A stretch of 64,000 bases of DNA from Roseovarius sp. SCSIO 43702 (GTDB lineage Bacteria > Pseudomonadota > Alphaproteobacteria > Rhodobacterales > Rhodobacteraceae). Location of the stretch: contig NZ_CP080623.1 of assembly GCF_019599045.1 (NCBI RefSeq), forward strand, positions 3,246,501 through 3,310,500, given 5' to 3'. This document shows, piece after piece, positions 4,646-21,857 of the stretch (the first letter of the stretch is position 1; each line of letters opens with the position of its first letter). The translations under genes were made by a program, and so were the position numbers. The notes under the pieces were generated by a model that saw only the letters and a program-made list of their open reading frames with translations, ran no database searches and was not told where the DNA came from.

Positions 4646-5851
4646 TCAGGCGGCTTCTGTTGTGATGCTGAGAATGGGGTCGATCTCTTCGGTGTCGATC
4701 TGGGCGAAGGCCTCGACCATCATGTAGCGGCTTGCGGTCTGCCATTCGTCGTTCTGTTCGAACAGCACCGCGCCGATCAGGCGCATGATGGAAGCCTCGT
4801 TCGGAAAGATGCCGACGACGTCTGCCCGGCGCTTCACCTCCTTGTTGAGGCGTTCGATCGGGTTGGTCGAATGCAGTTTCGTGCGATGCTGTCGGGGAAA
4901 GGACGTGTAAGCCAGCACGTCGTGTTCGCTTGCGTCCATCAGGTCGGCGAGCTTGGGCCAGCGTGGACGCAGCTGCTCGGAGACCTTGCGCCAGGTCTCG
5001 CCGGCATGGGCGCGGTCGGGCTGGTCGAAGACCTGCCGGATCGCGGCGGCGACGACGGTGTGCTGACCGCGGGAGACATGCGCGAGTGCGTTCCTCATCC
5101 AGTGAACGCGACATCTTTGCCAGGTCGCCTCAAAGACCCGGGCAATGGCGGCCTTGAGACCGGTATGCGCATCGCTGATGACCAACCTGATACCGCCGAG
5201 GCCACGGGCCTTCAGCGAGCGCAGGAACTCGGTCCAGAAGGTCTCGGCCTCCGAAGGTCCGATCCCCAGACCGATGATCTCGCGCCGCCCCTCGGTGTTG
5301 GCGGCGACGGCGATTATGGCTGCGACCGGCACGATGCGCCCGCCCTGGCGGACCTTGAGATAGGTGGCATCCAGCCAGAGATAGGGCCACTCGCCGCTGA
5401 GCGGGCGGTTCAGGAACTCGCCGACGCGCTCGTCGATGTCCTTGCAGAGCTTTGAAACCGTGCTCTTCGAAATGCCCGAGAGCCCCATCGCCTGGACCAG
5501 ATCATCGACACGCCGGGTCGATACCCCGCCGATCCACGCCTCCTGAATGACCGCGACCAGCGCTTGCTCCGAGGTCTTGCGGGCCTCGAGGAAGCCGGGA
5601 AAGTAGCTGCCCTGCCGGAGCTTCGGCACCCGCAGGTTCAGCGTTCCCAGACGGGTATCGAGGGCGCGCTCCCGATACCCGTTTCGCCAGGTCGTGCGTT
5701 CGCCGCTGCGCTCGTGCCGACCGGCGCCGATCAGGCCCTCGACATCGGCCTCCATGATCAGCTGCAGAACCGCCTCAGCGACAGCGCGTAGGAAGTCGCC
5801 CTGGTCGTGCTTTGCGAGAAGCTCGGAAAGGTCCATGTTCGTCTTGGTCAT
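4646..5851 (-). CDS. IS256/Mutator-family transposase
   Basis: A 401-aa DDE transposase that moves the surrounding IS. The start at 5851 (MTKTNMDLSELL) is preferred because GGAG lies just upstream; the frame is open further but carries no better site. Features typical of the family are the N-terminal motif ERTTWRNGYRER, first Asp in LWLDATYLKVR, second Asp in LVISDAHTGLKAAI, a C/H motif in WQRCRVHWMRN and the catalytic Glu in NPIERLNKEVKRR. The reading frame is complete, so the element may still be mobile. No sign of frameshift. Confidence 0.93.
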   Translation of the reverse strand: MTKTNMDLSELLAKHDQGDFLRAVAEAVLQLIMEADVEGLIGAGRHERSGERTTWRNGYRERALDTRLGTLNLRVPKLRQGSYFPGFLEARKTSEQALVAVIQEAWIGGVSTRRVDDLVQAMGLSGISKSTVSKLCKDIDERVGEFLNRPLSGEWPYLWLDATYLKVRQGGRIVPVAAIIAVAANTEGRREIIGLGIGPSEAETFWTEFLRSLKARGLGGIRLVISDAHTGLKAAIARVFEATWQRCRVHWMRNALAHVSRGQHTVVAAAIRQVFDQPDRAHAGETWRKVSEQLRPRWPKLADLMDASEHDVLAYTSFPRQHRTKLHSTNPIERLNKEVKRRADVVGIFPNEASIMRLIGAVLFEQNDEWQTASRYMMVEAFAQIDTEEIDPILSITTEAA

Positions 5852-5943
5852 CGGGGTCTCCGTGTGGTCCGTGGTTGAAGTCGCCAAACTCCACCTCGAC
5901 CATACACCTCGATGGCCACCCGGGATCACACCGTCGACGGCGC

Positions 5944-8197: not shown

Positions 8198-9322
8198 TCA
8201 GGTGCTGCCGATGATGCGGCGCTCCTCACCGAGCGGGATGATCCAGCCGCCGGCTCGATCAGGTCGGGAAAATTCATCTGGACCCACAATCTGCGTCAGG
8301 CGGGTACGAACTGTTTCCATATCCGCATCTATAGCGGCGCGGATAAGGTCACGCTCGATGCCGACGAAAACCGGCCGGAGGTTGAGGCGAGCGAGCGCCT
8401 CCTGATCTGCAGGCGCGACGTCCGTCTCAGTGACAGGCCCGGCACGAGTAACGATCCCTCCGACCAGCGCGCCCAAGGTTGTGTCTTTTTCTACTTCTTT
8501 TACCGGCACAGCATCCAACAATGTTCGCACGCGTCGGAGGTCACCTTGTAGCCTCCGCTCGAAGGGCTGGCGGGTCAGGCCGCGGAGGGCGCTGGCGAGT
8601 TCGGCATGCCCGAGCGATTTGATGAGATTGGCGATATGGAGGCGTAGAAGCCCGATGAAAAGAGCATCTATCTCCTCCGTTTTGATCGGCTCGCCTTCAT
8701 CCACCGGATCGCGGACTGAGAGGTGAGCGTTGGTCGGACGTGGCGCCGCAATTCCCCATCTTGTCGCAATCGCGATCCGCTTCACTGTAACCTTACTTCC
8801 TCCGGCGGTGATATCTATCCGTCCGGCCTGAGCCCAGGCGCGGCTCAAGGCCTTGGCCGGGCCGGCAGCATCATGGCAGCCTTTTGCCTCCGCCACGGTC
8901 AACGAGGACAGATCCGATGCACAGGCAATCCAGTCGGGTAAGTCTCCGCGGGACAAGCGCGTGACTTTGACCTTGCGGCGCCGATCGAGGTCGACAACGC
9001 GGCTGCCGAGGTGCGCGAAAATCGAGAGGTGGAAGTAGCGCTCGAGATAAGCTCGAGCCACAAAACGGCCGAACAAGCCGGATAGCGCGACCTTAACTTC
9101 CCGGGCCTGTCCAAGCGGTTCCCGAAAGACAAAGGGGGTCCCGGCGCCGGTTGGCGTCAACAATGCTTCCAAGATAGACCACGCGCCATATGCAGCCCCT
9201 GGAGTCTGCAAGACTTCGCGAATTCCAGCGTCTTCGATCTCCGAGATTTTCAAGTCAACTGTCGCCCCAGTGACGGGACTCAATGCTGCCGGATCGAAAC
9301 TGTGCAGGAAGGTCCTTGTCAT
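8198..9322 (-). CDS. Hypothetical protein with a PD-(D/E)XK-like nuclease signature, 374 aa
   Basis: Not assigned to a named family. Residues 129-147 contain Pro-Asp, a 14-residue strand region and Glu-Ala-Lys (LPDWIA followed by LTVAEAKG), the arrangement of the PD-(D/E)XK nuclease fold. The rest is a mixed alpha/beta N-terminal part and a helical C-terminal part rich in Leu and Arg. The start at 9322 (MTRTFLHSFDPAAL) is the first ATG. It precedes the 83-aa possible ATPase remnant by 71 bases and follows the PIN gene by 219 bases in the same direction. The nuclease assignment rests on one motif and is tentative. Confidence 0.6.
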   Translation of the reverse strand: MTRTFLHSFDPAALSPVTGATVDLKISEIEDAGIREVLQTPGAAYGAWSILEALLTPTGAGTPFVFREPLGQAREVKVALSGLFGRFVARAYLERYFHLSIFAHLGSRVVDLDRRRKVKVTRLSRGDLPDWIACASDLSSLTVAEAKGCHDAAGPAKALSRAWAQAGRIDITAGGSKVTVKRIAIATRWGIAAPRPTNAHLSVRDPVDEGEPIKTEEIDALFIGLLRLHIANLIKSLGHAELASALRGLTRQPFERRLQGDLRRVRTLLDAVPVKEVEKDTTLGALVGGIVTRAGPVTETDVAPADQEALARLNLRPVFVGIERDLIRAAIDADMETVRTRLTQIVGPDEFSRPDRAGGWIIPLGEERRIIGST

Positions 9323-9541: not shown

Positions 9542-10177
9542 TTAGTTATGGGATGGATTAAACCAGATACGGGACCGCACTTCCCGTGGCAAGGATGTGC
9601 AGGACATTGCGGCTTCCGGACCAATGATCTCACATACTCTGGAAACGAGTTCCTTTGGAACACGCATTCGTGCGATGCGCAGTGCATTCAGTAAGGCGTT
9701 GGCCTGTCCGCTTTCTTCCAGAAGATTTCTCACAAGATCGCTGGTCAACAGCCCAGCGGTCGAGACAACAGCCAGCTCGGGATACATTTCCGAACATAAA
9801 AGACGTGCCTTTCTTTCGTCAATCAGGGCTACGCCGGAAAGTTCGACGGCACAGCCGATGGTTGACGCTTCGCCGTCGTCAAGGGTGCGCAGCGTCGATC
9901 CGTCGATAAGACTTTCATAGACGGTCAGGGCATCCTCGCCCAGGTTGACACGGTGTGCGTGGCCCTGCTTGCAGAGCTCGTCCAAAGCATCGGCGTCGTG
10001 ATACCCGTTCCGGCGGCCATTCTCCAGTTCGGCGGAGACATTCTCGGGAACGGCAAAGCGGCAGGGAAGTCCTCCGAGTATATCGGCGGCGCGGCCTGTT
10101 GCGTTCAGATTGATAAGAACACTCGTATCGGCGATGAAAACGGCATCTGGATCAGCGAGGCAGTTTAACCAGGTCAT
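9542..10177 (-). CDS. PIN-domain ribonuclease-like protein
   Basis: A 211-aa protein starting at ATG 10177 (MTWLNCLADPDAVF), overlapping the end of the protease gene by 26 bases in another frame. PIN landmarks are present: first acidic residue in FIADTSVLINLNATG, then Glu in NVSAELENGR, a DDGEAST segment and Asp in GVALIDERKARLLC. These coordinate a metal and usually cleave RNA, as in VapC toxins. The C-terminal 60 residues are a helical extension. Long overlap with the upstream XRE-protease gene suggests a toxin kept under control by that partner. It could also be the effector of the whole four-gene operon. Targets cannot be predicted. Confidence 0.8.
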   Translation of the reverse strand: MTWLNCLADPDAVFIADTSVLINLNATGRAADILGGLPCRFAVPENVSAELENGRRNGYHDADALDELCKQGHAHRVNLGEDALTVYESLIDGSTLRTLDDGEASTIGCAVELSGVALIDERKARLLCSEMYPELAVVSTAGLLTSDLVRNLLEESGQANALLNALRIARMRVPKELVSRVCEIIGPEAAMSCTSLPREVRSRIWFNPSHN

Positions 10178-11345
10178 TTTCCTCGCCTTCTTCAGCCGCT
10201 GCGCTATCGAGCAAGGCACGAACGCTGTATCTGTCCAGATGGAGAAGGCGCAGGAGCTGACCTTCGCTGTAGATGCCCCGCTTCCAGGCCTCACCGGCCA
10301 AAAGCGCCAGCCGTGGCGGCAGCGTGGTGCCGGTTTCCGAGATCGGGAAGTGGCTCTGCGGAAGGTCTCCCAGAACCTGACGGGCTTGCTCGTCGGTGAT
10401 GCCGCCATTCGCCTGAAACCAGTCCCACGTTCCCTTTCGAGCAAGACCCAGTTCTTCCAGACGGCGGACCATGGCTTCGCGGGCCACGCCGAACGCATGT
10501 GCAAGCAGAATGATATGGCGTCGGGTCAGATGAGAGTGACCGGCCGTAATGTCCTGGAAGCGCTGACGAACGGCGCGGGACGGCGTCAGGAAGCCACGGG
10601 AAAAGCTGTTGGCATAGCGCTCTTCGCGAGAAACGAAGAGCGAGCTTTCGGTCAGCACTTCCGGCTCGCGGCGAGACGATATGAAGTGCCCGAGTTCGTG
10701 TGCGGCGGTCGTCATAAGCCGGGAGCGGGGATGCAACGCATTCAGGAGCATGCAGGCCCCGGCCCGATCGTCATAAGCGAAGAGCCCAGAGATTTTTGAG
10801 TTCAGCGGACAAAGATAGACCCGGATGCCGAGCTGAAGATCCAGAACGGAGACGATATCGCCGACAGGCCCCGGCCCGATACCCAGCCAATCGCGCAAGT
10901 CCTGAGCATCCGCTTCGGCCTGTGCAACAACGGAGCGGTTATCTCCCGGCAGGATCGGGCGCTCCGGCGGATACCGACGTTCCCGATGAATCCCGAGGGC
11001 ATTTTCCAGCTCAAGCTCCGCCGAGACAAGATCGTTAAGGAGGCGGCTCGACGACTCAACGGCATCGTCTTCGCTCTCACTGAGCTTCCGGAATTGCGGG
11101 GCAAGGTTGAGCTGAACCGCTTCCCGTCGGAGGATCGCGTTCGCGGAAGTGCCGTAGGCTGCGGCGAGCTTCTGCAACTCGTCGATGCGAATCCGGCGCT
11201 GACCTTTTTCTATTGCAACGACGGTCGTTCTGGCCGCTCCGATAACCCCGGCGGCGTCTGCCTGGGTCTTCTTCGCTTCTTCGCGGGCAAGCCTCAGGCG
11301 TTCGCCGATCTCCCGATCCGATAGTCTTTCTGCGGTGGCGTTCAT
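10152..11345 (-). CDS. XRE-type regulator fused to an ImmA/IrrE metallo-endopeptidase
   Basis: A 397-aa protein. Residues 10-65 form a helix-turn-helix XRE domain (IGERLRLAREEAKKTQADAA). Residues about 150-255 are the ImmA/IrrE zinc protease: HELGH at 216-220 and a downstream Glu in EERYANSF near 241. Proteins of this type cleave a repressor or a toxin-antidote partner when triggered. The start at 11345 gives an ATGA overlap with the QueC-like gene; the longer frame to 11411 would overlap it by 70 bases. It lies between the QueC-like and PIN genes, so it may both repress the operon through the HTH and act as the switch that frees the nuclease. Confidence 0.88.
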   Translation of the reverse strand: MNATAERLSDREIGERLRLAREEAKKTQADAAGVIGAARTTVVAIEKGQRRIRIDELQKLAAAYGTSANAILRREAVQLNLAPQFRKLSESEDDAVESSSRLLNDLVSAELELENALGIHRERRYPPERPILPGDNRSVVAQAEADAQDLRDWLGIGPGPVGDIVSVLDLQLGIRVYLCPLNSKISGLFAYDDRAGACMLLNALHPRSRLMTTAAHELGHFISSRREPEVLTESSLFVSREERYANSFSRGFLTPSRAVRQRFQDITAGHSHLTRRHIILLAHAFGVAREAMVRRLEELGLARKGTWDWFQANGGITDEQARQVLGDLPQSHFPISETGTTLPPRLALLAGEAWKRGIYSEGQLLRLLHLDRYSVRALLDSAAAEEGEENDLVKLPR

Positions 11346-12709
11346 AGTTTGCCACGCCGCCTTTCCGCCAGGAAAGAGCGGGCTCCCAAGCTGTTCATGT
11401 AGGTCTCCCATTCGGTTTTGTGTTGTTCGAGCAGGGCTCGCAGGTGGGTTTGCGTCTCATCGATGGACGCGCCGAGTGCCAGACCGAGCTGTGCGGCTTG
11501 GACGCGAACCTCCGGCCGCGCCGCGTCTTCGGCCATATCGGCCAGATGGTCGAGATGCAGGAACCCGGCATGGGCGTATTCCGCGAAGGCACCTCCGGCA
11601 TGCCGAAAGCGCGGATCGACCGCCGCCGCAAGGTCCGGGGCGCTCAGGTCGGGTGCAGCGTACACGTCAGGCCGCTCACAAAGCCCAGCCGCATGAACGC
11701 TCATGCGTCGAAGCATGCAGGCAGCACAGACGCCGCATTGCCGCCATTCCCCGGCGATGGACAGCCAACGGCTGCTACGCCAGCAGGAGCGGGTATCCCA
11801 CCAATCTTGCCCCTCAGGCAGGGCAGCATACTCCCGAAGGGTCTGGCCTTTCGTGTGCCAGAGCCGCGGGAAGCGGAATCGGATATCTCGCCCGAACAAG
11901 GCGCGGAAATACCGCTCCATCTTCCGTGCAAACACAGGATGGTTCCGATAATCGGGGTAGGCGTGTGCCACGCCGACCAGTGCAGGCCCGATAGCGCCTT
12001 GTCCGCTTTCAGGAATGACGATTTCAGCAGCACCGGATAGGTAGGCGGCGACGCCGGCGATCGAAGAGAACTTGAACCCCCGGTTTCTCGCCGTGGAATC
12101 CCTGTTCGGCCCGATATTCGAAAGCTCATATGGGACACCGGCGAAGGGGACAGGCTGGGCGAGCCCTCGCCGTCGCTTTGGCGTGCCGGTACCGAGCCTG
12201 ACCTTCACAAGCCGGTTGCCCATCTCCTGGCGCAGCAATCCTGCAACCACCCTCGAGTCCATGCCGTCGCTATAGGCGATGACCGCTCGGGTATCGGGCG
12301 AAAGATCAAAATGCGCCGTCGGGACGGCAACAGATGGTGACGTTCTTTGCGAGAATTCGAAAGACCAGTCGTCGCCGGTCAGAAAGCCGACAGCATCGAT
12401 CAGAGCGTTCTCAACTTCTCCGGCCTGCCATCGCGCCGCATCGTGGACCGGTATGTTCAGAGCGAAGATACGACGCCAGCCATGAGCCGGACGTCGAACG
12501 GTGCGGTCGGCATACTCGACGGCCGCAGCGACGAGCATGGCATCAAGCACAACCGGTTCCCGGTCGGCAAAGGCATAGGTCTCAAGGGATGCCGTCGAAA
12601 ATCTGATAGCATCGATGGACAATCCCCGATTCCCGGCACGCGCGATTGCGCCAGGCTCCAGAAGATCGATGGCGGTTTCAGGAATCTGCGGTGCGTTGGT
12701 GACGGTCAT
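11342..12709 (-). CDS. QueC-like PP-loop ATPase (7-cyano-7-deazaguanine-synthase family, divergent)
   Basis: A 455-aa protein, about twice the size of housekeeping QueC. The first 135 residues are an extra N-terminal domain. A modified PP-loop YSDGMDS lies at 146-152 (the usual form is SGGxDS), a strand with VIPESGQGAIGPAL resembles the QueC core, and zinc-binding Cys residues are at about 309, 325, 328 and 331 (QCGVCAACMLRR). QueC turns carboxydeazaguanine into preQ0 with ATP and ammonia; QueC-like proteins in Qat and type IV CBASS islands act in defence. Start and stop overlap both neighbours by 4 bases. No other queuosine gene is nearby, so a role in tRNA modification is unlikely. Function in this operon is inferred. 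Confidence 0.82.
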   Translation of the reverse strand: MTVTNAPQIPETAIDLLEPGAIARAGNRGLSIDAIRFSTASLETYAFADREPVVLDAMLVAAAVEYADRTVRRPAHGWRRIFALNIPVHDAARWQAGEVENALIDAVGFLTGDDWSFEFSQRTSPSVAVPTAHFDLSPDTRAVIAYSDGMDSRVVAGLLRQEMGNRLVKVRLGTGTPKRRRGLAQPVPFAGVPYELSNIGPNRDSTARNRGFKFSSIAGVAAYLSGAAEIVIPESGQGAIGPALVGVAHAYPDYRNHPVFARKMERYFRALFGRDIRFRFPRLWHTKGQTLREYAALPEGQDWWDTRSCWRSSRWLSIAGEWRQCGVCAACMLRRMSVHAAGLCERPDVYAAPDLSAPDLAAAVDPRFRHAGGAFAEYAHAGFLHLDHLADMAEDAARPEVRVQAAQLGLALGASIDETQTHLRALLEQHKTEWETYMNSLGARSFLAERRRGKL

Positions 12710-13284
12710 AGCGGCATCGCCGGGCCGTCGTCGATCCCGGTCCTCCGCACAAGAGACGTGGCGCGTGAGGCCTGCACTTCGGTCTGACTGTGGCGACGGG
12801 CAATATCACCGAAATCGCACCGACCGCCGACGGCAGCGAGACGGTCGCGCATATGGCGGGCGCTACGGTCTCCGGCCTTGCGCTGATAGTGCTCTTCGAT
12901 GCTGCGGCTGTGGCTTCGGAAGTTGCGGTCGAGTGCATACTGGAGCCCGCGTTGGCAGGCCGTTTCTCCCCGATCTCCTTCCAGAACGGCTTGGATAGCT
13001 CCATCTATGGCTGCGTTGCCGATTGCCGACCCGCGACATTCAATCCTGGAACGGTCAAGTTCGGTCACGACCGCGTCTCCATCTTGAGCGAACAGAGAAA
13101 TTTCCGGGCCGACGCCGAGGATGCTGCGCAGGGAGCGGATGGGTACCTCGCGGAGGTCGCGCTCAAGTGCTCTCAAAGTCGCATCGGCAACATCGGAAAT
13201 CGACCATGCGTCTTTGGAGGCCCGCTCGGCGACAGGCTTCCAATGCGACTTCAGGGGCAGGCTTCTATGCGGTCCGTCACTCAT
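12706..13284 (-). CDS. Hypothetical protein, first gene of the QueC-like operon, 192 aa
   Basis: No known domain. It begins MSDGPHRSLPLKSHWKPV at 13284, where AAGGAGG stands 5 bases upstream; the frame is open to 13413 but that part would cross the promoter repeats. It has an N-terminal helical part (AWSISDVADATLRALERDL), a central beta-like segment, and a basic C-terminal half rich in Arg and His with a disordered tail. Its stop overlaps the QueC-like start (ATGA). A small partner protein upstream of a QueC-like enzyme recalls Qat and type IV CBASS layouts, where the partner is thought to be the substrate modified by the enzyme, but I see no sequence match to either. Confidence 0.6.
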   Translation of the reverse strand: MSDGPHRSLPLKSHWKPVAERASKDAWSISDVADATLRALERDLREVPIRSLRSILGVGPEISLFAQDGDAVVTELDRSRIECRGSAIGNAAIDGAIQAVLEGDRGETACQRGLQYALDRNFRSHSRSIEEHYQRKAGDRSARHMRDRLAAVGGRCDFGDIARRHSQTEVQASRATSLVRRTGIDDGPAMPL

Positions 13285-13294
13285 GGCGACCTCC

Positions 13295-13355
13295 TTGTCA
13301 GGTTGATAAGCCAGTTGACCTGACAATGTCAACATCTCTGAGGTGCGCACCTGAC
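13295..13355 (-). promoter_or_regulatory. Promoter and repeated operator of the QueC-like operon
   Basis: On the minus strand TTGACA, a 17-bp spacer and TTATCA form a plausible sigma-70 promoter. It is embedded in repeats of ACCTGAC: 13318-13324 and 13349-13355 on plus, and 13297-13303 in reverse. A 20-bp element at 13314-13333 has arms GTTGAC and GTCAAC around the -35 box, and AGGTGCGCACCT at 13341-13352 is a perfect palindrome. The position and symmetry fit autorepression by the XRE protein of this operon, which is inference. Confidence 0.55.
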
Positions 13356-15370: not shown

Positions 15371-15994
15371 TCACGGTAGAGCACCTTGAAGATCATCCAA
15401 ATAGCCGTCGCACCCGGAGAAATAGCCGTCCAGTCCGTGCATCACATCCGCAAGCTGATGTAAGTCAATTTCTTGATGTGCAAGCGCTACGAGTTCTCCT
15501 TTAGTATCGACCGGATAACGATAGGAGAAGGATCGTGGATCGACCCTTGCGAATTCCAGGACGATCTCCCCAACGATCCTGTCGGCGCCTTCAGCGTCTT
15601 CATGACCGTATCTTTCAAGAACCTGCGAGAAGGTTTCCCAAAGCACCTTTAGATCGTGAGTATTCCAATTGGCAGGAATGCCCACGGTCTGACCGTAGGT
15701 GGCAATCAAATACTTCAGCGAAAGCTCTATGAATTGCCGGTAGTTAAAGACAACCGGAAAGACCAAGGTATCGCCTTCATGGCGGTCGCGCGCGACATGG
15801 GCGACCATAAGGTCGGCGGCCGTCTTGTAGCCGGTCATCATCATGACCATGCGACCATGACCGACCTGGTCGATGTAGGCGTTCTGACCCCAGTTATCCG
15901 ACTGCCTAAACGGCACATCTCCTTCTGTTGGCCATCGAAAGTCCGTTCGAAGAAGGGACTGGAAGTCAGGTTTCTCTGTCGTCTCGTCTGTCAT
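15371..15994 (-). CDS. Hypothetical protein paired with DUF2971, 207 aa
   Basis: No firm family. The segment VVFNYRQFIELSLKYLI followed by THDLKVLWETF resembles, weakly, the helical core of HEPN-like proteins, and the C-terminal part HQEIDLHQLADVMHGLDGYF is also helical. A canonical HEPN RxxxxH motif is not evident. The start is ATG 15994, 29 bases after the stop of the DUF2971 gene on the same strand, so the two probably form a unit. Such pairs on islands are often toxin-antidote or phage-defence genes, but nothing here proves it. Confidence 0.55.
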   Translation of the reverse strand: MTDETTEKPDFQSLLRTDFRWPTEGDVPFRQSDNWGQNAYIDQVGHGRMVMMMTGYKTAADLMVAHVARDRHEGDTLVFPVVFNYRQFIELSLKYLIATYGQTVGIPANWNTHDLKVLWETFSQVLERYGHEDAEGADRIVGEIVLEFARVDPRSFSYRYPVDTKGELVALAHQEIDLHQLADVMHGLDGYFSGCDGYLDDLQGALP

Positions 15995-16023: not shown

Positions 16024-16986
16024 CTATTCTGAGCCGTCACGCGGAGCTTCCTCGACATCAAGATCGTCAAAGGCCTCGATGTAGCTGCGGGCGCGGCGCG
16101 GGAAGTGCGCCTCAAGCTCGTCGACGTCCATGCGGCACTTGCGAAGCTTGAAGGTCCCACGTTGCTCCCGCATTTCATAGAATTGGATCGGCCGTTGACG
16201 GTCATCGAGTGCTCTGAAGATCGTGTACTTCAGGGCGGACCCACATCTCATCCCGAAAACAACCTCTTCCAGTTCCAAAGGACAGTCCTGCAGGCCCCGG
16301 TTTCCAATGAGCCGCCACTCCTGCTCGTAGCGCCAGGAACTGGCCTTGCGCAGCAGGACGGCATCGTCGACGCGTCGCCGCGCAGCCGGGTCATGATCCA
16401 TGATGGCAACATCACTCGCCTTGACGTTTCGGCTACCTCCATAGTCGATTTTCTTGAGTCGATCTGCCGAGTCTTTCGGAACCGAATATCCGGCGCATAT
16501 GCCTCGGTGCTGATCGCCATAATGGCTCCACATCAAAGGACATGTGGCTCGGGCGCCAAACGACACGATGCCTCTGTCGTAGCGCCTCAAAAGCTCTTCC
16601 TCGAGATACTGTGTCAGCAGAAAAAGCTCCGGATCCGCCATCTCAAAGGTGGGATCTCCGGCGTTGTACCTGATCTCGCTCAACAGCCGGTCGGCGCGCT
16701 TGCGGCTATGGCGGGCGATGTGTTCGATAGTCCGTGGCCCGCGGTATTTCAGGGACTTCGCCGCCGTCGTCATCTCAGCGTTCGTGCGCTGCTCAACGAG
16801 ATGGCTCAGGATCCGCTCGAGCTCATCAGCGGAAATGTCACCTTCGACGTTGGGCCGGCTGTCGAGCGGATCGTTGAAATCGGCTGGATCGGAGAAGTAG
16901 AGTTGATCGGCCACCAGCATGTCGAGCACCCTGCCACTGAAGGCGCGATACTTGAAAACTCGGCGGGGTGGGGTGTGCTCGTTCAA
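16024..16986 (-). CDS. DUF2971 domain protein
   Basis: A 320-aa protein with the DUF2971 hallmarks: FKYRAFS and LYFSDPADFNDPLDSRP near the N-terminus, CPLMWSHYGDQHRGICAGY in the middle and WRYEQEWRLIG further on. The family has no settled activity that I know of, but its members are common in islands near abortive-infection genes. The start is set at TTG 16986 (protein NEHTPPRRVF after the initiator) because AGGAGG lies 5 bases upstream; a TTG at 17001 would put this site inside the gene. It precedes the 207-aa gene by 29 bases. Confidence 0.8.
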   Translation of the reverse strand: MNEHTPPRRVFKYRAFSGRVLDMLVADQLYFSDPADFNDPLDSRPNVEGDISADELERILSHLVEQRTNAEMTTAAKSLKYRGPRTIEHIARHSRKRADRLLSEIRYNAGDPTFEMADPELFLLTQYLEEELLRRYDRGIVSFGARATCPLMWSHYGDQHRGICAGYSVPKDSADRLKKIDYGGSRNVKASDVAIMDHDPAARRRVDDAVLLRKASSWRYEQEWRLIGNRGLQDCPLELEEVVFGMRCGSALKYTIFRALDDRQRPIQFYEMREQRGTFKLRKCRMDVDELEAHFPRRARSYIEAFDDLDVEEAPRDGSE

Positions 16987-17336
16987 GTCTTCCTCCTGCA
17001 ATCGTGTTACCTTCGATGCCTTTTTATTGCGCTAATCGTCCGCGAGAAACCCGCTGCCTCGCTATGCTTGCTGCCTGACAACTCATTGGTGGGAATCGTG
17101 AAGTCGGAGACGACAACAGCCTCGTTCTCGCCGCCGGACCAATCGCCGCTACTCATCCGTGCAAGCTATGCTCGGTCTTTCCGAATGTCATCGACAAGTT
17201 CTGAAGCACATTGGCTGCTCGGTCCCTGCGGTAAGGATCGGTGCTGAGCCAGCTACGGTCGGGTGCTGCTATCTAATCGGTGGCCGACGCCTTGGAGCGC
17301 CAGGAGCTGATGTTCATCAGCAGGCGACTTTTCCCT
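16987..17336. other. Non-coding stretch of 350 bases between the DUF2971 unit and the recombinase module
   Basis: Short open frames cross this region but none has a ribosome site or a recognisable product. It holds the upstream region of the DUF2971 gene (with AGGAGG at its left edge) and the 3' flank of the recombinase gene that ends at 17337. I see no strong hairpin or repeat. Confidence 0.35.
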
Positions 17337-19007
17337 TTAGCATAGCACTTCCAATTCCATCTCGATTGGCGGGAAGTGCTTTTCAATGATGTCATTTGAG
17401 AAGCCCGAAAGTAGGAGGCCGTTCGCTTCGAGAAGCAATGCGTCGTGCATGGCTTTCCCTTGATAAAATCGTGCCGTTCTCGAGTCCCGCTGTGCACACA
17501 GAGAAAGCGCCATCTCCACGCCTTTTCTACCCATCCTTCCGAGTTCCGTATGGACAACGGTGCGGGCGATATGTGGACCACATTCGATGTGACGTTGCCA
17601 AAGGTTCGCCACTCGTCGGTTCGACATGTGTCGGCCATTCGCATGTGCAAACAGAGCTTGTTTCGACTGAAGCGCTTCCTGTCGCTTCATGCCAAGGTAT
17701 GTCTCGTCGCATCCACGCAACAGCAGCGCGTCGAGAAATGGCGTGACGAAGTCACAGACCTCCCCGTGGAACTCCGTGCCGCATTTACTGGTGCGTATAT
17801 CGAGCCGATACCGCTGCCCGGTATGGGTCATATGAACACCCCAAAGAAGATTAGTGTCTTTCACACGCAGCGGGATCAGCGAGAAAAGCGCCAGCGTGGC
17901 GGCCGCGTTCAGCTTCGCCACGCGGAGTTCGAGGGATCGTTCGTTTCGAGAGGCTGCGAGCAAGTCAATGGCGCGCCCGAGCACACCGTCCACCGAGTCC
18001 AGCTCGTCCAGTCTGGCAAACTTTTTGGGGATATCTGCCCGCTTCTTGCGGAAAAAATCCTGCTCTATGTTGCGCAGGTCTGCCATGATCTCTCGATCGA
18101 GGCCAAGCACCTCCGCAAACCGTCTGAGGGCGGAAATATTGATCTCGATCGTCGCGTTTGTCGTCCCGCGTCCCTTGAGCTCGTTCACAAGTGCTAAGGC
18201 CGTTCCTCTGTTGATCTCGCACGGCAGCTCGAGGTCCTGGCAACAGAAACATAGCGTCCGGAGCGCAGTCTCTACAGTAGGGAGAAAACCCGGCGAGAGC
18301 GGTGTGCCTTCGCCGCCGCCGGCTTCCACACCAGCGAGAATATTTTGCCACTCCGTCGGCAAGGCGGAACTGCTCACTGACTTCTCGAGCGGCCAACTGG
18401 AACGCACTTTTCTCCCGGACCCGAACCGTCTCGCCCGTAAGGCCGAAATCGCCAGGTCAAGTTCTACCGCCACGCATGGAATTTGCGGGATCTCCAGCTT
18501 TTCGAACGTCGCCTTGAGTGCGGTCAGTGGAACCTCCGTAGCCCACTTTCCGGCAAACTCGACATAGTCATGGGAATTGGGAAAACGGATGCGGCGTTCG
18601 TGAAGATACCGCAACCACTCATCAAGGCGGCTGACCTCATGTATATGGAGATTGTCCATCCTGCTCTGGGGGAGGAACGACAGCCACCACTCAGCTTGCA
18701 GGATCTCGCTTCTCATCCGAACGCCATCGACGCGCCGCCTGTGGTCGACCACGGCCGCGTGCAATTCCGTTCTCAGAAATTCCCGATCTGGCAACACGCC
18801 GAGAAGAGATTTCTGAAGGTCGGCCAGGACGCCGCGGGTCGCAACATCCGCGGCGAAATCCAGAAAGACAAAGCGATCAACATGGGGGACGTCGCGATCC
18901 TTCAACCAGCGCTGAAAGCGCTGGATCCGAAGGGTGTGCTTGCCACGCGGACGGTCCCCCGGTTGGATCCTGAGGAGATCGCACGACGAGATCGGGTCAT
19001 GCTGCAC
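17337..19007 (-). CDS. Divergent tyrosine recombinase, second of a pair, 556 aa
   Basis: The C-terminal half follows the tyrosine-recombinase plan: a possible Arg-I box LIPLRVKDTNLLWG, a beta-hairpin with RLDIRTSKCGTEFHGE, then VVHTELGRMG where HxLRH is expected, and RTARFYQGKA with the likely Tyr nucleophile. The HxxR box is degenerate (no Arg at the usual place) and the second His is replaced by Gln. The N-terminal 200 residues are unassigned. It overlaps the first recombinase by 11 bases, so the two are made together and may act as a heteromeric complex, as in multi-recombinase island modules. Whether this subunit is catalytic is uncertain. Confidence 0.7.
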   Translation of the reverse strand: MQHDPISSCDLLRIQPGDRPRGKHTLRIQRFQRWLKDRDVPHVDRFVFLDFAADVATRGVLADLQKSLLGVLPDREFLRTELHAAVVDHRRRVDGVRMRSEILQAEWWLSFLPQSRMDNLHIHEVSRLDEWLRYLHERRIRFPNSHDYVEFAGKWATEVPLTALKATFEKLEIPQIPCVAVELDLAISALRARRFGSGRKVRSSWPLEKSVSSSALPTEWQNILAGVEAGGGEGTPLSPGFLPTVETALRTLCFCCQDLELPCEINRGTALALVNELKGRGTTNATIEINISALRRFAEVLGLDREIMADLRNIEQDFFRKKRADIPKKFARLDELDSVDGVLGRAIDLLAASRNERSLELRVAKLNAAATLALFSLIPLRVKDTNLLWGVHMTHTGQRYRLDIRTSKCGTEFHGEVCDFVTPFLDALLLRGCDETYLGMKRQEALQSKQALFAHANGRHMSNRRVANLWQRHIECGPHIARTVVHTELGRMGRKGVEMALSLCAQRDSRTARFYQGKAMHDALLLEANGLLLSGFSNDIIEKHFPPIEMELEVLC

Positions 19008-20826
19008 TGGGAAACTCCTTCGTCAGTTCCTGCTGGCCGGCGAGCACCAGTTTTTCGTGATCGATCCAGGCGTAATTGTCCCGGCAGACCGCCTCCGTGT
19101 CACCGAGACGTGCGGTGACGAGAGACCAGTTCCCGGGGTTTTCCGCGACAATGATCGAGGCCTGACCGTGACGGAACATGTGCGGATTCAGACCGGGAAA
19201 CCCACATTCGGCTGCACAGTCGGACCACCACGACTTGAACGTTGCGTAAGGCAGAGGCCGCCCCTGTTTCTGGACTGCCGGAAAGAAATGAACGTTGTCC
19301 TTATGGTCGCCAAAGAGCGGCCGGATGACCTTTTCATACCAGCGAAGCGTTTCCAGACCGCGCAACCGGCTTGTTGCCGATATTGTCGCAAAAAGCGGCT
19401 TGCGGTTCTTCACGAACGCAGGCGGCATCATGATGCGCCCGTCATCCGCCTTGCGATGTCCGAGGCAGAGCCAGGCGGCGCTGCCGCGGAAGGTCGTCAT
19501 CAAGACGCTTGAGACGCGCGCCGGGATTGCATCGGTTTCCAGGGCCGCGAAGGCCGCACATGTCCCGAAGCGACGCGCCTTCTCGAGGTGCCGCTCGGCT
19601 TCACGGCCCGTCGTCATCTGGGCTGCCTCCAGGTGCAGGATGGCCTTTTTCCTGAGTTGGATGTGAAGCGACAGGAACCGAATTCGCGCGTTCATGTCGG
19701 TGACGACCTTCCTACAGAAGGAGCGGAGGCGCGGGGACATCTCGGTCCGATTTCGGCGACCGATCTTCAGCCACGAGTCGGTTTTCAAGATCGTCCTGAC
19801 AGAAGACGCATCTTCGCCGTTGCGCTCCAGCAGTGGAATGAGGCAGTCGAAATAGCCCCAAGCCGTGCGAGGCGTGATGGCCCCGGGCCCATCATTTTTA
19901 TGCAGGTCGCGAAGCATTTGAACGACAGCGACCAACACGCGCTCATCGAAGGCCGACGCGATGGTGTTCAGTCCGACAAGTTGCAAAGCGCCGGCGCGTT
20001 CTGCCGTCGTGAGAATCTTCTTGGCGGCATTGAGGTAGGGCTTGGGGGAGACACCGCCCACAAAGGCATTGTCTGTAATGGACCAAAGGCCCCTTGAGGC
20101 CAGGTCGACCCAAGTTTCCAGCTCCTGCATCAACGGCTCCGGAATCGCGACTTTCTCAGCGCGTTCTGGCCGGACGAAGCCAATGGGCTGCGTTGGGAGG
20201 ATACGCTGTAGCCGCCGATCCGTTATGACCCGTGACTGATCGATGAGATCGAGGGCCTCTACGACAGCGTCCTTTGCCGCGGGCGTGGGTGCCGCCCGGT
20301 AAAGGCACAAAGCGACGTCCGGATCGATGTCGCTCACCCGGACCTCCAGCTTTCTGGCGGTATCCGCGCAGCTTTGGATACAGATGAGCCGCTTCGGATG
20401 ACGCTCGAACGGTGAGGGAAAGCCCTTCTCTGCGATTTCTCCCAGCACAGCCAAAAGCGAGGCCCAATCGTCGCGCCGCGCCCGGCGTTCCTTCTGAGCC
20501 GCGATGATGCCAGTCGCGCCATTGATAGCCGCCGAAACGTTGCGCTTCCAGCGCTTTGCAGCGCAGAAGGTCTTGCCCCAAGAGCGATCGTAGTCCCTGT
20601 TCGGAAAAATGCTCTGAAATTGCTCCGTGCAAGCGGGAATTCGGTCAGGCACCCGACCGATCAGCCTTGCCGCTTTTCGGACGGCTTGCGCATAGGTTCG
20701 TCGAGCGGTTTCCCCGAGAGGGCATTCGTCGCGTTCGAGCCACTCGAGCACATCCTGGAGGTTCTTCTCTCCGGCTGCTTTGTCGCCAAGACCATGAAAA
20801 CTATCTTCAAAGGGATTGAAAGTCAT
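18997..20826 (-). CDS. Tyrosine recombinase, first of a pair, 609 aa
   Basis: A large recombinase for site-specific integration. In the C-terminal region ARVSSVLMTTFRG is the likely Arg-I box, LNPHMFRHGQAS is HxxRH, and LGDTEAVCRDNYAWIDHEK holds the Tyr nucleophile. About 400 residues precede this domain, more than in phage integrases. The start at 20826 (MTFNPFEDSFHGLG) has AAGGA 10 bases upstream; an ATG at 20835 directly touches that site and is less likely. Direct repeats that may be binding sites lie just upstream. It is followed by a second, divergent recombinase with 11 bases of overlap and preceded by a small DNA-binding gene. Confidence 0.75.
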   Translation of the reverse strand: MTFNPFEDSFHGLGDKAAGEKNLQDVLEWLERDECPLGETARRTYAQAVRKAARLIGRVPDRIPACTEQFQSIFPNRDYDRSWGKTFCAAKRWKRNVSAAINGATGIIAAQKERRARRDDWASLLAVLGEIAEKGFPSPFERHPKRLICIQSCADTARKLEVRVSDIDPDVALCLYRAAPTPAAKDAVVEALDLIDQSRVITDRRLQRILPTQPIGFVRPERAEKVAIPEPLMQELETWVDLASRGLWSITDNAFVGGVSPKPYLNAAKKILTTAERAGALQLVGLNTIASAFDERVLVAVVQMLRDLHKNDGPGAITPRTAWGYFDCLIPLLERNGEDASSVRTILKTDSWLKIGRRNRTEMSPRLRSFCRKVVTDMNARIRFLSLHIQLRKKAILHLEAAQMTTGREAERHLEKARRFGTCAAFAALETDAIPARVSSVLMTTFRGSAAWLCLGHRKADDGRIMMPPAFVKNRKPLFATISATSRLRGLETLRWYEKVIRPLFGDHKDNVHFFPAVQKQGRPLPYATFKSWWSDCAAECGFPGLNPHMFRHGQASIIVAENPGNWSLVTARLGDTEAVCRDNYAWIDHEKLVLAGQQELTKEFPSAA

Positions 20827-20844
20827 GGGTGTCATTTCCTTGTT

Positions 20845-20965
20845 TTGGCCGTTCATCGTTCAGATTGGCCGTTCTTCGTTGTGACGAAGCGGAAATTGAC
20901 AGGCACTCTGCAAGAAAAGTCGCAACAATCTTGCCGGGTGTTTGTCATCTTTTCCGTTCTTCGTC
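20845..20965 (+). repeat. Three direct repeats upstream of the recombinase genes
   Basis: TTGGCCGTTCATCGTT at 20845-20860, TTGGCCGTTCTTCGTT at 20865-20880 (20 bases later, two helical turns) and TTTTCCGTTCTTCGTC at 20950-20965. In addition GGGTGTCATTT occurs at 20827-20837 and 20968-20978. Spacing and location suit binding sites for the recombinase or its small DNA-binding partner. Confidence 0.55.
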
Positions 20966-20976
20966 GGGGGTGTCAT

Positions 20977-21486
20977 TTAATCGTTCCCGGTGGCCGCAGA
21001 TCGCGCTGCAGCCCACGGATCGAATGAGTTGCACACGGGATTTCGCTGCCGGGGCTTCGAGGCCTCAGGCGAGATCATCGCCGTCGTCGAGGCGCGCTTG
21101 TAGTGAGGCACAGGCAATCCTGCCTGCCAGGCGCGCAGCTGTGCCCTTCGCCAGAGCATTGGCTTTTTCCGGAGCGGGATAGGGTCCGGAAAGCTCGCAT
21201 CTGGCTTCGCCAAGCCGCGTCGCCTGGCGGAGCGCGGTGACTCCCCCAGGATGCCTGCGACGTCGTCCGCCGTGCAGTGTGGCAGCTTCAGTTCGTCCCA
21301 GCGCGATCGGGGAGGCGGCGCGAGCCCCTCGGCTCTCCAAATGGAAGACCACGCGTATCGGCCGCTGACGTTGCGGACGCCGATTTTCCGCGCGAGCTCA
21401 CGGGCGGCCCTGGCCGAAGGCAGTCTCCAATACGTAGCGAGCTCTTCGGCACTCGCCGAACCCGGATCCTTGCTGTTGGTCTTCAT
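20977..21486 (-). CDS. Small DNA-binding protein of the recombinase module, 169 aa
   Basis: A 169-aa basic protein. Two similar segments, LATYWRLPSARAARELARKI and a second with DDVAGILGESPRSARRRGL, look like winged-helix or AlpA/excisionase-type helix-turn-helix units. The start is ATG 21486, with AAGGAGG on the complementary strand 5 bases upstream. It is 150 bases upstream of the two recombinase genes on the same strand, with the direct repeats between them. I suggest an excision or recombination-directionality role; a transcriptional regulator is also possible. No family name is certain. Confidence 0.6.
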   Translation of the reverse strand: MKTNSKDPGSASAEELATYWRLPSARAARELARKIGVRNVSGRYAWSSIWRAEGLAPPPRSRWDELKLPHCTADDVAGILGESPRSARRRGLAKPDASFPDPIPLRKKPMLWRRAQLRAWQAGLPVPHYKRASTTAMISPEASKPRQRNPVCNSFDPWAAARSAATGND

Positions 21487-21767: not shown

Positions 21768-21857
21768 GGAGACGTGGCCGAGTGGTCGAAGGCGCTCCCC
21801 TGCTAAGGGAGTAGACCCGCAAGGGTCTCGTGGGTTCGAATCCCATCGTCTCCGCCA
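21768..21857 (+). tRNA. tRNA-Ser (anticodon GCU)
   Basis: The 90-base sequence folds as a class II tRNA: acceptor GGAGACG pairs with CGTCTCC (21847-21853), the anticodon arm CTCCC-CTGCTAA-GGGAG shows anticodon GCT, a long variable arm TAGACCCGCAAGGGTCTC follows, and the T arm GTGGG-TTCGAAT-CCCAT is standard. The discriminator is G and the CCA end is encoded. It reads AGC/AGU serine codons. It marks the boundary between accessory island and core genes. Confidence 0.96.

Follow-up and report, generated by a model that had tools for sequence, protein, structure and literature searches.

A conserved cassette of QatC-like, XRE-ImmA and PIN-like genes in Roseovarius as a candidate defence operon

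Four overlapping genes in a 64,000-nucleotide stretch of Roseovarius sp. SCSIO 43702 (contig NZ_CP080623.1, positions 3,246,501 to 3,310,500; the whole stretch is referred to as the window) are found together across distant bacteria and resemble an antiviral alarm of a new kind: a QueC-like enzyme, derived from a pathway for tRNA bases, probably tags a small partner protein, while a nuclease kept in check by a protease would inflict the damage. With modest confidence, the operon can be described as a compact anti-phage or anti-mobile-element system of two modules, a QatBC-like pair (P1 and QC) and a RosmerTA-like pair (XI and PN). The evidence supports a defence operon in which both pairs stand under one promoter that is probably autorepressed. 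The features are as follows.

12706..13284, minus strand: P1, 192 amino acids (aa), all-alpha, its N-terminus MSDGPHRSLP near-invariant and its C-terminal end conserved; proposed as a substrate or sensor resembling QatB
11342..12709, minus strand: QC, 455 aa, a QatC-like ATP-dependent ligase by its motifs and predicted fold
10152..11345, minus strand: XI, 397 aa, an XRE helix-turn-helix (HTH) domain fused to an ImmA/IrrE (M78) metalloprotease; proposed autorepressor and antitoxin
9542..10177, minus strand: PN, 211 aa, a PIN-like nuclease; proposed toxic effector
13290..13294, minus strand: GGAGG, ribosome-binding site of P1, read from the sequence and seen as a GG.gg stretch in the consensus of aligned upstream regions
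13296..13332, minus strand: promoter-operator, consisting of TTGACATTGTCAG (13332-13320, containing a -35-like TTGACA), 18 bases and CTGACA (13301-13296)
13326-13318 and 13303-13295, minus strand: inverted repeat TTGTCAGGT/ACCTGACAA of the promoter-operator

An earlier sequence-only reading of this DNA had described four genes that all overlap, and the coordinates, all on the minus strand, bear this out: the P1-QC junction is an ATGA at 12709-12706, the QC-XI junction is an ATGA at 11345-11342, and XI and PN overlap by 26 bases. That reading extended the operon to 13355, which is too far, as the bases beyond the P1 start are upstream DNA; P1 most likely starts at 13284, directly behind the GGAGG.

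Conservation of the operon was assessed in 88 loci (8 from plasmids and 80 from genomes, the latter being the best 80 of 105 from a scan of genome contigs) re-annotated with profiles grown from the window's own proteins. Of the 88, 86 show the four genes in unchanged order, with split genes taken as present, and the contig ends early in the other two (L015 and L053). Genes lying in two frames include QC in six of the 88 loci (L015, L016, L024, L025, L048 and L049), XI in L035, QC in L116 and P1 in L121. The order persists while P1 diverges to 27% identity and QC to 38%, and so do the junctions: P1 and QC overlap by four bases or one in 83 of 88 loci, QC and XI by four in 60 of 87, and XI and PN by 26, 23 or 8 in 81 of 86. 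Moreover, the distance matrices of the four proteins correlate at 0.86-0.91 (86 sets). A chance neighbourhood is rejected because order, junctions and correlated distances are kept across loci, and the operon is a conserved unit. Co-occurrence, which the sequence-only reading had left to be checked, thus extends outside close relatives.

The plasmid searches display the same association. The tblastn search with QC returns 95 plasmid records, 25 of the 60 listed matching at 37% identity or more, while XI returns 137, with the top 25 of the 45 listed at 48% or more and the next at 29%; among the matches listed, the two sets of 25 are the same records. P1 is present in 24 of these (16 found by the P1 search of plasmids and 8 read directly, with LR723678 outside the count); in a Sinorhizobium fredii plasmid record P1 is matched only partly, since it spans two frames there. 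Chromosomal carriers include the host, whose operon lies on a single 3.6-Mb contig, and three records titled chromosome (L052, L058 and L087). By record title, carriers span Alpha-, Beta- and Gammaproteobacteria, Geomonas, Acidobacteria, Caldilineaceae, Planctomycetales and Entotheonella, where the records from outside the Proteobacteria, except Geomonas, are metagenome-assembled genomes, some on contigs below 10 kb (L035 and L080), and may be misbinned.

Within the host's own surroundings the operon is sparse. Only two of 60 relatives searched, the host included, give a clear P1 match (the host and one genome of the same genus, G034), and two weak matches among them (E 6e-4 and 9e-4) carry stops. 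A short locus from a same-genus genome (L093) shows P1 and QC before the sequence is cut. In a search of 385 genomes of the host's class, scored on the best four candidates per genome, 13 match QC. Three of these, the host and two others, score at least 635 bits and carry all four genes. The other ten score 54-122 bits, and their fetched stretches contain no P1, XI or PN match; an MGTS-type QatB open reading frame (ORF) lies upstream in seven and a different, GH-type partner in three. Such sparse presence among relatives would fit a horizontally moving cassette. Phage-borne cargo is ruled against by the lack of relatives in IMG/VR contigs (pattern scans) and in phage records (tblastn of QC).

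The first module is defined by QC, which is a remote QatC homologue and not a free-standing QueC. Its predicted structure matches the QatC fold across the full length, N- and C-terminal extensions included; it scores 109.2 bits against the QatC equivalog NF041925, below the 280-bit cut-off. An ordinary queuosine gene is rejected, as the canonical QueC model TIGR00364 gives 18.1 bits against a cut-off of 150.3. The sequence-only reading was right that QC is twice the normal size, that its PP-loop is changed to SDGMDS (147-152) and that its zinc cysteines are retained (C309, C325, C328 and C331); the size is explained by the QatC-type extensions. Further motifs are ESGQG (234-238) and YPDYRNHP (251-258). 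The same reading set the operon apart from Qat: QatA, an MGTS-type QatB and QatD are indeed absent, while QC is closer to Qat than it assumed.

The partner protein P1 is all-alpha in its AlphaFold2 model (pLDDT, the predicted local distance difference test, 88.5). Its N-terminus MSDGPHRSLP is near-invariant among relatives, with Ser2 or Thr2 after the methionine, as a model in which the QueC-like enzyme marks P1 predicts. MSDGPHRS was one of two patterns in the genome-contig scan, so that the invariance is partly built into the 80 genome loci and the 92% figure is partly pattern-selected; the claim rests on the loci found through QC. Comparison of the P1 and QatB sequences established no relationship. 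P1 ends (about 12706-12740) in a conserved D-x-G element that many relatives share, frequently as DEGP or DDGP/DDGV, with G187 in 93 of 95; it resembles the DGP of P1's own N-terminus.

The second module joins a protease to a nuclease. XI matches the Pfam families M78 (9.3e-14) and HTH_3 (3.2e-12) and, among PADLOC models, which carry no curated cut-off, RmrA (4.6e-21, with several RmrA models), capP (8.6e-14) and capH (3.5e-8). Its HELGH motif lies at 216-220, and all 93 sequences compared keep H216, E217 and H220. In the PN family, 5 of 19 members scanned match the PIN domain PF01850 (best 5.2e-6), PN itself not being among the significant matches; PN matches the PADLOC model PDC-S70 (7.1e-13). 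Conserved acidic residues are D17 (92 of 93), E50, D101 and E103 (all 93) and D120 (90), and PN is absent only where the available sequence ended. In RosmerTA systems, ImmA antitoxins are reported to pair with varied toxins, and PIN-like partners are predicted (PMC10440598).

Both modules share one regulatory region, in which TTGACATTGTCAG, 17-18 bases, CTGACA and then GGAGG precede P1. The TTGACATTGTCAG element occurs with at most two mismatches before P1 in 90 of 97 loci (51 exact), compared with 11 of 970 random windows, which were drawn from the same loci and may include the true operator site. CTGACA with at most one mismatch follows in 80 of those 90 loci, at a spacing of 17-18 in 77 of these. 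The 3.6-Mb genome of the host contains the complete pattern a single time. Because the operator is conserved and no protein of the operon other than XI has a recognised DNA-binding domain, XI very likely acts as an autorepressor there. The sequence-only reading, which saw XI as a protease, had overlooked the operator; repression would be a role in addition to proteolysis.

The setting of the operon also points to defence. On plasmids, the neighbourhood of the operon contains, among others, AbiE, restriction enzymes, E2/ThiF ubiquitin-like genes and Shedu. Mechanically called ORFs, up to eight per locus, were taken from 18 of the 80 genome loci; their 136 flanking proteins match 141 PADLOC models at 1e-10 or better, compared with 19 for 137 proteins taken at arbitrary positions of these 18 genomes, a ratio inflated by counting models instead of proteins, as one protein alone matches 29. 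The first 25 of the 141 listed include AbiE, BrxL, JetD and defence reverse transcriptases. The operon is not only conserved but also placed among defence genes.

In the window, two further candidate defence genes lie near the operon, encoding a DUF2971 protein (16024-17001) that matches PADLOC PDC-S31 (5.5e-41) and a weak HEPN-like protein (15371-15994, E 0.014). Three adjacent ORFs at 17337-21486, which we take to be recombinase-like, adjoin a tRNA gene, and together with it suggest a mobile island.

21768-21857: tRNA-Ser

Beyond the downstream end of the operon are a presumably transposase-like ORF (4646-5929) and a 374-aa ORF (8198-9322) with no family match.

These elements can be assembled into a signal path. 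The sequence-only reading, which is partly supported, had proposed that the protease would sense the marked state of P1 and the PIN nuclease would then be released. QC would bind ATP, activate a carboxylate-bearing, nucleobase-like molecule and attach it to P1 through the amine of the N-terminal residue (Ser2 or Thr2 once the methionine is removed), which would sit in the QC active site. This conjugation chemistry is somewhat favoured, and it would arm P1 or shift its state upon infection. XI would meanwhile bind the operator, repress the operon and keep PN silent; that PN is an effector restrained by XI is fairly probable. The armed P1-QC would then trigger the XI protease, or single-stranded DNA (ssDNA) would do so, as it does with CapP and PprI (for PprI, as reported in PMC10904395); the step from P1 to XI is the most tentative of these. 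With XI lost, the operon would be derepressed and PN would cut RNA, stopping the cell or the invader.

The queuosine pathway provides an argument against the simplest version of a model in which QC marks P1, namely conjugation of 7-carboxy-7-deazaguanine (CDG) made by the host. The host has no QueC over the cut-off, no PTPS/QueD and nothing that matches the QueE model applied; the QueE absence is weak evidence because the model misses some QueE, being negative in a genome (G424) with QueC and PTPS. In 50 other carriers, QueC over the cut-off is found in 35, PTPS in 36 and neither in 10, and those lacking both include isolates by record title (L009, L013 and L024). Canonical QueC occurs in 53 of 144 genomes of the host's class, a proportion that allows no conclusion on enrichment, as the carrier sample (50 of the 80 genome loci) mixes classes. 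Each of 12 genomes tested has Tgt; 11 of these, the host included, lack QueC over the cut-off and QueD, which points to a possible salvage of 7-deazaguanines. The conjugated molecule may therefore be something other than CDG made by the host, or be obtained by salvage; alternatively, QC may act on another substrate.

A different division of labour would give the effector role to the P1-QC complex, as in the case of QatBC and lambda, and leave XI only as a DNA-damage switch (a fusion of CapH-CapP type) that increases expression and PN as an accessory nuclease. QatBC alone is reported to suffice against some phages (PMC13279940), ssDNA-activated CapP is reported to cleave the repressor CapH and control defence operons (PMC13373217), and XI matches both the capP and capH models behind a conserved operator. 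However, CapH and CapP regulate varied operons according to the same report (PMC13373217), whereas this type of XI occurs only with QC in 25 of 25 listed plasmid matches, and the persistence of PN and its acidic residues is at odds with an accessory role; this alternative is unlikely. More improbable is a toxin-antitoxin-like stabiliser of mobile elements, with XI as antitoxin, PN as toxin, P1 and QC conditioning both, and phage defence as a by-product. The presence of the operon on at least 25 plasmid records (those listed) and the resemblance of XRE-ImmA and PIN proteins to toxin-antitoxin parts agree with it, but the operon is also chromosomal, its flanks are rich in defence genes, and a four-gene cassette with a ligase would be costly for mere addiction. 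Least probable is that the product of QC is a free small molecule, a modified nucleobase acting as a signal, with P1 as its carrier or regulator. In favour of this are the unusual S[DEN]GxDS loop and the YxDxR element, which resembles that of QueC and stands where Qat enzymes carry STRTT. A protein substrate is favoured, in contrast, by the invariant P1 N-terminus and by the QatC-type extensions, of which a part binds QatB in the Qat system.

The two-module operon overlaps with several known systems. Like qatABCD, it has a QatC-like enzyme with N- and C-terminal extensions and a zinc site CGxCxxCxxRR, and a small all-alpha partner gene directly upstream with a conserved N-terminus. In contrast, none of the four proteins matches the QatA or QatD models, P1 starts with MSDGP and not MGTS, the QC loop is S[DEN]G[ML]DS and not SGGLDS, YxDYRNHP replaces STRTTHP, with its paired threonines at the base site, and the companions are XRE-ImmA and PIN-like. 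Membership in qatABCD is rejected on the equivalog score, the missing QatA, QatB and QatD, and the loop and base-site motifs. The host has a separate qatABCD-like locus (L122; G000:C1:1279000-1292000) with a 664-aa ORF, a MGTSNAFGG QatB ORF, a 499-aa QatC-like ORF and a 262-aa ORF of QatD size, the first and last judged by size and place.

Type IV CBASS (Cap9 and Cap10) shares the QueC-fold ligase, a YxD element like the CDG-recognition residues and a partner with a conserved N-terminus; it differs in that a scan of 10 window proteins, all four of the operon among them, gives no PADLOC match to a CD-NTase or Cap10, QC has long extensions, P1 presents Ser/Thr instead of Gly, and some hosts have no detected CDG pathway. 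RosmerTA (RmrA/RmrT) likewise has an XRE-ImmA protease of the RmrA type adjoining a nuclease-like gene, whereas here P1 and QC precede XI-PN, and XI is at most 29% identical to other plasmid XRE-ImmA proteins among the matches listed. CapH and CapP combine an HTH repressor and an M78-type protease with a conserved operator over the promoter, whereas XI holds both domains in one protein, the third in its operon. No described four-gene system was matched in PADLOC, Pfam, NCBIfam or PHROGs or found in the open-access literature searched, in agreement with the sequence-only reading, which recognised no named system.

A third QueC-like pair (L123, L124 and L128; G230, G377 and G172) may be another N-terminal-substrate system. 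Its helical-looking protein, encoded directly upstream, has a conserved N-terminus (M)GHIRLGxLPxSKKW, with Leu9 and Trp15 at the same positions as in P1; MGH is found in 115 of 120 listed relatives and Trp15 in 115 of 115. Its QueC-like protein differs in being 620-639 aa where complete and in having SGGLDS and TR(S/T)THP, and no XI or PN match occurs in the fetched stretches.

In type IV CBASS, immunity is reported to involve the conjugation of a nucleobase to a protein (PMC11996544), and the same is proposed for Qat, for which the reaction and the manner of phage restriction are described as unresolved (PMC13279940). The operon represents an independent QatBC-like pair that keeps the QueC-like YxDxR element, also in hosts without a detected CDG pathway, and supplies a candidate effector module and a conserved operator alongside it. 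With it, three questions can be put to the test: which molecules QatC-like enzymes attach, whether a Gly is required at the N-terminus, and by what means the mark is read. A bolder and rather doubtful proposal is that a nucleobase-like molecule other than host-made CDG is placed on the N-terminal Ser/Thr of a small helical sensor, and that the mark controls a metalloprotease serving as both operon repressor and PIN-nuclease antitoxin. If true, protein-nucleobase conjugation would be coupled to proteolytic toxin release, as a third QueC-based immune system.
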